64,000 nucleotides of DNA from Gemmatimonas sp. (lineage in GTDB: Bacteria; Gemmatimonadota; Gemmatimonadetes; Gemmatimonadales; Gemmatimonadaceae), in NCBI GenBank assembly GCA_021154325.1, contig JAJKIR010000135.1:1-64000 (forward strand). The letters run 5' to 3'. The position numbers were made by a program, and so were the translations under genes. Each line of letters begins with the position of its first letter. Positions within the stretch are counted from its first letter, which is position 1. The notes under the pieces are model-generated. The model ran no database searches. It was given only the letters and a program-made list of their open reading frames with translations, and was not told the DNA's origin. Shown here piece after piece: positions 39,554 to 41,250 of this stretch.

Positions 39554-39949
39554 GTGTCGAGAGTCAACAAATCGGGGCGCACAGCGGCAGCAGGCAAGAA
39601 GCGGCAGGCGCGGAGAACGGGCGCTCGCGGAGGGAGCGTCACGAAGACCAAGAGCAGCGGACGCGCAAAGGCGAAGCTGGTCCCCGCAAAGGAGCGGGAA
39701 GTTCAGTTTCGCGTCAGGGAGCTCAACGCCCAGCAAAAGTGCGGGGCTGGCACCTCGGTCGAGCGGCTCTTTCGAGTCGATGAAACGGTGGATGGCGCCG
39801 CGAAGGCGCATCTGGTCTTCCTCGACCGGCGGCACGGCTGGTACTGCGAGCACGGCGTCGAGTGTCCTGCAGTACGACAGGCACGACGGATTGGAGAGCC
39901 TAACAGACACCACAACGGACGGACTCACAACGGTGGGATGAGAGCATGA
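39554..39949 (+). CDS. Small basic protein with Cys/His motif, unknown function
   Basis: 131 aa from GTG 39554, with AGGAG 7-8 nt upstream. The first 45 residues are Lys/Arg/Ala/Gly-rich and look disordered and nucleic-acid binding (MSRVNKSGRTAAAGKKRQAR...). The second half is more folded and holds HLVFLDRRHGWYCEHGVECP, a possible metal site (two Cys five residues apart with a nearby His). The frame ends ATGA on the start of the Rad52-like gene, so the two proteins are made together. No family recognised. Confidence 0.75.
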   Translation: MSRVNKSGRTAAAGKKRQARRTGARGGSVTKTKSSGRAKAKLVPAKEREVQFRVRELNAQQKCGAGTSVERLFRVDETVDGAAKAHLVFLDRRHGWYCEHGVECPAVRQARRIGEPNRHHNGRTHNGGMRA

Positions 39950-40791
39950 TCGCACGACACGAGACACACATGGACAAGATGGACATCTGGTCGAAGCTTT
40001 CCGCGCCCCTGCCCTCTGGCGTCATCTCCTGGCGTCAGGACGGCAAACCTGTACAGCGTGACGGCAAGTACGTCGCGCGCTTCGTTGCTTACATCGACGC
40101 GAACACGGTGCGCGAGCGCCTCGACAGCGTCGTTCCGGGTGAGTGGGATCTCACCCTCGATCTCCTTCCGACGCTCGCGGGCCAGGATGAGAATGGGGAG
40201 CAGACCTGCTCGTTCAAGGCGCGTCTTCAGATTCTTGGCGTGATTCGCGAGGATGTCGGGACGGGCCGCGATTACAAGTCCGCAGCGACGGATGCGTTCA
40301 AGCGCGCGGCGGTTCGCTTCGGCATCGCGCACGAGCTGTACAGCTTCGAGCAGAACTGGGTGCAGGTCGACAGCGACGGCCGTTACGCAAAGCCGCTCGA
40401 AGAGCCGGCAGTGGTCTATGCGCGTCGACAGGCGCGCTCCGAAGCTCGGGAGCGCGCGCGCTCTGAACGGCAGGATGAGCAGCAGGCGACGCCTGGCGAC
40501 GTCCACATCGAGACGACGCTCGCCGGTCCCGCCACTGGGCCGCTCGCGCTGGATGAGCCGAGCTGCCCGAAGTGTGGAGGTCGGATGTGGGACAACCGAC
40601 TCTCGAAGCGGAATCCGAAAGCGCCGGACTTCAAGTGCCGCAATCGCTCCTGCGACGGTGTGGTCTGGCCAGCGAAGGCTGGACAGCGGTCGAGCAGCAA
40701 TGGACGGAACGCGTCGGGCGATTCCTCCTCCGAGCCCTTGGTCCCGGAGACGGAGCCCGCGGCGGCGGAGACGGATCAGATTCCATTCTGA
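39946..40791 (+). CDS. Rad52/Rad22-family annealing protein with zinc ribbon and SSB-like tail
   Basis: 281 aa. Residues about 15-140 match the Rad52/Rad22 (DdrA-like) fold pattern: RFVAYIDANTVRERLDSVVP, an SFKARLQILG strand and the diagnostic GRDYKSAATDAFKRAAVRFG. This family anneals single strands in recombination and repair. A charged linker follows, then a four-cysteine zinc ribbon (Cys207, Cys210, Cys231, Cys236; CPKCGGRMWDN) and a disordered acidic end finishing in ETDQIPF. That end resembles the DDDIPF tip by which SSB recruits partner proteins. Phage recombination proteins and DdrA are the nearest concepts. The SSB-mimic role is inference. Confidence 0.82.
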   Translation: MIARHETHMDKMDIWSKLSAPLPSGVISWRQDGKPVQRDGKYVARFVAYIDANTVRERLDSVVPGEWDLTLDLLPTLAGQDENGEQTCSFKARLQILGVIREDVGTGRDYKSAATDAFKRAAVRFGIAHELYSFEQNWVQVDSDGRYAKPLEEPAVVYARRQARSEARERARSERQDEQQATPGDVHIETTLAGPATGPLALDEPSCPKCGGRMWDNRLSKRNPKAPDFKCRNRSCDGVVWPAKAGQRSSSNGRNASGDSSSEPLVPETEPAAAETDQIPF

Positions 40792-40938: not shown

Positions 40939-41250
40939 ATGGAGTCATGCACCATCGCGGTCACGTCCCACGATTACGCCGATGCGCGGCGTGTGCTGTC
41001 CGAGTGCTGGATCTTTACGCCGGAGCGTGGTCTGCGAGCGATGACGCTTCACGGCAATGGCTCGACGGTCGCCATCGATGGCCGGCGACTCATTCGCTGG
41101 TGCATTCTGGATGATGGCGTTCCGCGGGCGATCCTGGCGTACTTGTACTGCGCCGAGCATCCGTCCGTCGAGCTGCGCAATGAGGTTGCAACCCTCGCGA
41201 GAGCGAGATTCGATAACGGCAGTCCACCGCGCCTCACCGCACGAACATGA
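40939..41250 (+). CDS. Small hypothetical protein
   Basis: 103 aa from ATG 40939 (MESCTIAVTSHDYADARRVL), with GGAG 9 nt upstream and codon use like its neighbours. It has several Cys and Trp residues (ECWIFTP, IRWCILDDG, YLYCAEH) and no signal or membrane segment. I recognise no family. It lies after the Rad52-like gene and its terminator and overlaps the convergent lipoprotein gene by 17 nt at the 3' ends. It could be expressed separately or by read-through. Confidence 0.5.
   Translation: MESCTIAVTSHDYADARRVLSECWIFTPERGLRAMTLHGNGSTVAIDGRRLIRWCILDDGVPRAILAYLYCAEHPSVELRNEVATLARARFDNGSPPRLTART

Follow-up and report, generated by a model that had tools for sequence, protein, structure and literature searches.

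How could a protein that anneals single strands of DNA keep at hand the repair enzymes that dock on the single-stranded DNA-binding protein (SSB), when SSB itself departs from the annealing site? For DNA repair in bacteria the tail of SSB serves as the main docking platform, and the question is raised by a gene of Gemmatimonas sp. located in the 64,000-nucleotide stretch analysed here (the window; contig JAJKIR010000135.1), which is part of a 4.74 Mb assembly that is 79% complete. This gene (39946..40791, plus strand; ATG start, stop included) encodes a Rad52-family protein of 281 residues with a ribbon and an SSB-like C-terminal tip, and this three-part build is genuine and conserved. From its sequence we consider it probable that such an annealer, having an SSB-type docking tip of its own, brings SSB partners, RecO for example, to the site of annealing. 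The core, likely a ring-forming strand annealer, would pair complementary single strands, the ribbon would provide a second grip on single-stranded DNA (ssDNA), and the linker and tip would act like the tail of SSB itself, docking SSB-partner enzymes, e.g., RecO, where annealing takes place. SSB shows its tip on ssDNA but has to leave for annealing, while a self-tipped annealer could keep the SSB partners nearby during the exchange. The tip of E. coli SSB, i.e., its last nine residues, is reported to bind over 17 partners, a set that includes RecO, and it can alter their activity (PMC7913777).

The assignment of the core is supported by sequence and predicted fold. A first-pass annotation of this DNA had proposed a Rad52/Rad22-type core, and residues 14-142 (39985..40371) indeed match PF04098 Rad52_Rad22 in a Pfam scan (E 1.2e-10, 41.9 bits versus a cut-off of 20.3). 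The protein also matches the Erf-like family phrog_1097 (PHROG, E 1.5e-18), and the segment GRDYKSAATDAFKRAAVRFG lies inside both match regions. The fold check suggested for this core gave a concordant result, since its predicted structure has the Rad52 fold and matches human RAD52. A sequence search of the PDB with the window protein returned no relative (best E 0.4), and the Pfam scan, with E values up to 1, detected neither the OB-fold domain of SSB (PF00436) nor the ERF profile (PF04404). The protein is Rad52 family by membership and SSB-like in its tip only. Among the matches listed, its closest named homologues belong to Gemmatimonadaceae, and the start MIARHE is common to most of the homologues listed.

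The other two parts also correspond to what had been annotated. The CxxC...CxxxxC ribbon occupies residues 203-244 (40552..40677), and its cysteines, C207-x2-C210 and C231-x4-C236, are invariant across a 42-row alignment; the two conserved pairs fit a predicted zinc ribbon. It is followed by a linker (residues 245-274; 40678..40767) that is variable among homologues and 22-42 residues long in the 106 homologues measured, and by the tip ETDQIPF (residues 275-281; 40768..40788). The open reading frame and its disordered tail are as described, with a predicted local distance difference test score (pLDDT) <50 over residues 247-266 and 268-281. The SSB of the same genome ends EDEDDDLPF.

The annotation had made its reading depend on homologues keeping the -IPF end, and for the most part they do. 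A search of 395 genomes of the phylum gave 32 with any match and 27 with a Rad52 protein plus ribbon (L001, L020-L045), all of one family; the core of L043 was missed by a text pattern, yet its residues 1-261 were matched in the phylum search. The ribbon is present in all 27 genomes and an [ILV]PF end in 24. A similar proportion was observed in a wider set, where 107 of 120 clusters (the best 120 of 2733 homologues) have this end. In the 24 tipped loci the protein invariably ends in P-F, even though the proline codon varies (CCG 17, CCC 5, CCA 1, CCT 1), and therefore the tip appears to be kept beyond chance. Eight codons encode the I, L or V of position -3, and the acidic positions vary. What did not hold is universality: the tip is absent in three of the 27 genomes (L025, L044, L045) and in 13 of the 120 listed clusters; the 13 include one that ends IPL, several entries that appear truncated and a group stopping just past the ribbon. 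Such losses would be expected if the ending had been inherited by domain shuffling from SSB or a phage protein and had little function in the Rad52 protein; nevertheless, codon changes and a variable linker have left the P-F intact in all 24 loci, which makes this explanation improbable.

The same positions bear on the possibility that the tail is directed to the protein itself. Self-directed tails have been proposed for T4 gp32 and T7 gp2.5. A tail of this kind has likewise been proposed for SSB, and a weak contact of the E. coli SSB tail with the protein's own DNA site has been reported (PMC5928155). Applied to the window protein, the tip would fold back against its own protein, at the ssDNA groove or the ribbon, and be freed when DNA binds, tuning DNA binding without any partner, for which a linker of 22-42 residues that is predicted to be disordered would be suitable. 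Generic acidity would suffice for this function, yet it is the acidic positions that vary, while P-F is fixed and position -3 is restricted to I, L or V. Autoinhibition is a fair rival explanation, albeit one that we regard as unlikely.

RecO, which the tip would dock under the reading that we favour, is encoded in all eight genomes searched. This observation is also compatible with a competitive role, in which the tip would vie with SSB for one pocket, for instance on RecO, and would strip SSB from its partners or transfer DNA out of the RecO pathway to the annealer; the SSB tip is a ligand of RecO, whose complex with RecR is reported to shift on this binding (PMC7913777). The acidity of the tips is relevant in this regard. 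Between positions -9 and -4, 89 of the 107 Rad52 tips have two acidic residues, versus four in 101 of 117 tips from a set of tandem-ribbon proteins described below; judged by their sequences, Rad52 tips are less acidic than SSB tips. This makes strong competition with a DDDLPF ending less likely, and we give the competitive role a low probability.

A DNA pattern for tips of this kind (D/E-any-hydrophobic-P-F-stop) was run on six genomes with the reversed pattern as a control. Enrichment of the motif per se was rejected: the bare DNA motif is not enriched, since the reversed control matched more often (59 versus 40 matches). Eighteen of the 40 matches read TGG instead of a stop; the other 22 have a true stop, which closes a frame of at least 100 codons in 18 cases and one of 16-64 codons in four. 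The distinctive feature is the location of the in-frame tips, which in these genomes are nearly confined to SSB and ribbon proteins. Of the 18 long-frame tips, 17 sit on such proteins: six on SSB (those other than the SSB of the window genome were named by their likeness to it), six on Rad52-ribbon proteins, three on tandem-ribbon proteins and two on RecT-ribbon proteins. The exception is a small protein encoded in a stretch that also has a weak Gam-like match and partial Rad52-like matches. At L053 5263-6647 (G159), a partial Rad52-like protein with the end ALPF and a small DDDLPF-ended protein were observed, neither of them with a ribbon. Because it requires an acidic residue at position -5, the pattern missed, for example, an AAA_24 protein in G021 with the end DGEIPF; with this same requirement, no tip was found in the stretches of distant core-only Rad52 relatives of the same phylum (L064-L069).

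The search with the Rad52 protein also returned proteins that resemble it in the ribbon only, so the ribbon is common to other proteins as well. An alignment of eight ribbons from these proteins has 18 invariant columns, and at E 1e-5 or better the ribbon was detected in 32 of the 395 genomes, once in the genome of the window. One carrier (L018) is an AAA_24 ATPase (E 1.2e-17) ending DGEIPF that matches phrog_1366 (5.4e-79) and, weakly, a Sak4-like family (1e-5), and its gene is flanked by a Gam-like gene and an integrase. Another (L058) is a RecT protein (E 2.9e-29) ending KADDDIPF. The RecT-ribbon-tip gene is present twice in G080, on a replicon of 1,106,233 bases; the two copies (G080:C3:6971 and 60031) are approximately 53 kb apart and have equal match scores. 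Plasmid 1 of the cultured Gemmatirosa kalamazoonensis KBS708 was the sole ribbon carrier among 72,556 plasmid records, and its ribbon is very likely of the RecT form (L058). A third group, the stand-alone tandem-ribbon proteins, is represented by nine distinct genes (L052, L054-L057, L059-L062), all of which end [IL]PF after several acidic residues. Of 631 relatives found for this group, almost none has a precomputed Pfam domain, and 117 of the best 120 end [ILV]PF.

The combination is also present in phages. When the uncultivated viruses of IMG/VR were scanned with the ribbon alignment, 87 loci were confirmed and 80 of them retained; the 80 proteins end PF in 59 cases, PY in six and neither in 15. 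The viral set is redundant, and the 80 sequences form 45 clusters at 90% identity (27 of them PF-ended), 32 at 70% (18) and 19 at 50% (10). A Pfam scan of 36 of the 59 PF-ended proteins identified 27 ERF, two Rad52 and one Gp3-like protein, the rest having no match, and a scan of 20 of the 21 other proteins identified nine ERF, one RecT and one Rad52. Further PF-ended phage ribbon proteins match phrog_10048, 22961, 11717 and 16191, families without an assigned function. Carriers of these matches, at L164, L165, L168, L182, L183 and L187, may be annealing proteins that have gone unrecognised. A control set of 80 viral ERF proteins was selected by core only, among the matches listed. A PF end was present in all 10 with four tail cysteines and in nine of the 70 without a ribbon (Fisher p 5.6e-8, a generous value because the sequences are related and the 10 overlap the earlier viral set). 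Of the nine ribbonless proteins, four end DDPF without the hydrophobic residue, and L257, L270, L274 and L278 end DLPF, EEVPF or VEVPF.

The possibility that the cassette replaces the phage's own ssb was also considered and is not supported. PF00436 was detected in three of 43 ribbon records versus nine of 49 ribbonless ERF records (Fisher p 0.13); the comparison covered 43 of the 80 ribbon loci and 49 of 80 for the ERF set, eight of the nine control matches were above the cut-off, and many records may be fragments. Almost 80% of the phages of Firmicutes are reported to have erf beside ssb (PMC8093625); here ssb genes are scarce in the ribbon-bearing and ribbonless viral sets alike. Among 50,697 named-phage records, neither a tandem-ribbon protein (E up to 1e-3) nor the 42-residue ribbon (E up to 0.05) found a match, although so short a query is weak and absence is unproven.

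Since ribbon and tip recur together on other cores, the portable cassette, more than this one gene, is the finding. It is possible, and we propose it tentatively, that a mobile ribbon-tip cassette makes annealing cores into SSB-like hubs, the tip and an ssDNA-gripping ribbon having been pasted onto Rad52, ERF, RecT and RecA-like ATPases of bacteria and phages; the tandem-ribbon proteins ending DDDDLPF would then be ssDNA-binding proteins without an OB fold. Several points weigh against the docking reading, in addition to the losses of the tip, its weaker acidity, the fair case for autoinhibition and the redundancy of the viral set. Named Pfam ribbon families match the predicted ribbon only below every cut-off, and zinc binding, strand annealing and recruitment of SSB partners by the Rad52-ribbon protein are predictions from sequence. 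RecO is also encoded in two of the three genomes whose Rad52 protein has no tip. The nine ribbonless viral ERF proteins indicate that a PF end can occur alone, and six Erf/Rad52 relatives from named phages are without the tip. Moreover, the Rad52 and Red-beta/RecT annealers are held to form one structural superfamily (PMC9870868), and for this reason the cassette spans families and not wholly unrelated folds, the AAA ATPase being the clear exception.

On the genomic side, the window gene is preceded by a small gene (39554..39949, plus strand), whose product of 131 residues is likely a dedicated partner of the Rad52 protein. Of 41 bacterial loci, 40 have this small gene directly in front of the Rad52 gene and the remaining one (L017) is cut off at its start; the viral locus L050 was found not to have it. 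When 12 loci that repeat the same contigs are dropped, the two genes are on the same strand in all 28 distinct loci, with spacings from a 4-base overlap, as in the window, to 149 bases. The partner protein has a basic N-terminus modelled at low confidence and a C..C.H....C core (residues 51-110, pLDDT about 90) with invariant C63, C98, H100 and C104; a conserved HGWYCEHG..C core was also observed. It gave no Pfam match, no PHROG match and no fold match to its model. Many of the compared loci have the same neighbours in the same order, with genes for a semialdehyde dehydrogenase and an M20 peptidase, often together with a helix-turn-helix gene, on one side and a GH125-like gene on the other. 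None of these common genes is seen at L008 and L016, which show the partner gene only. A prophage origin of the window gene is not supported, as the flanking genes are chromosomal and common to many loci. Just downstream lies an open reading frame for 103 residues (40939-41250, plus strand), whose relatives are confined to the closest loci (L004, L020 and L021).

If the docking role is correct, it would account for the retention of repair partners by an annealer while SSB departs, and recombineering proteins with a fused SSB tail would have a precedent in nature. The ribbon with a PF end also offers a sequence signature for recombination proteins in uncultivated phages, including families without a function. 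The presence of the ribbon on plasmid 1 of the cultured G. kalamazoonensis KBS708 makes the idea testable in an isolate.

The first-pass annotation did not know of the three-part combination as a described protein. In this respect, no description of an annealer bearing an SSB tip was found in searches of open-access literature, and the Iyer 2002 classification, which is outside that scope, could mention such ribbons; the combination is nonetheless less singular than supposed, given that ribbon and tip recur on ERF, RecT, AAA_24 and other cores. This spread across several annealing cores is the part that specialists may find surprising. With the Rad52/Rad22 family (PF04098; human RAD52, Mgm101, phage Sak) the window protein shares the core sequence and predicted fold, and it differs in its C-terminal ribbon and SSB-type tip. 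Rad52_Rad22 proteins from Antarctic soil metagenomes belong to the same Pfam family; the available part of that report mentions no ribbon or tip, and this comparison is by description only, so that some of those proteins may be identical to ours (PMC10140301). Eukaryotic Rad52 is reported to bind RPA through a specific C-terminal region (PMC9870868), and the window protein carries the tip instead. Bacterial SSB (PF00436) likewise has a disordered linker and, at its end, an acidic [ILV]PF tip, but the window protein has no match to the SSB OB fold and fewer acidic residues in its tip. An engineered PriB-SSBc chimera also places the SSB tail on another ssDNA-binding protein, with increased ssDNA binding and further stimulation of PriA, although it is man-made, has a different core and has no ribbon (PMC8509808). 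A further parallel is that of the phage annealers Sak4 of HK620 and lambda Red-beta, in which strand annealing is also tied to the SSB tail: Sak4 is reported to depend on the final six residues of its SSB (PMC5928155), and Red-beta to contact SSB through its own C-terminus (PMC9870868). These annealers bind the SSB tail from outside, in trans, whereas the annealer of the window itself ends in such a tail, and those described here appear to own one.
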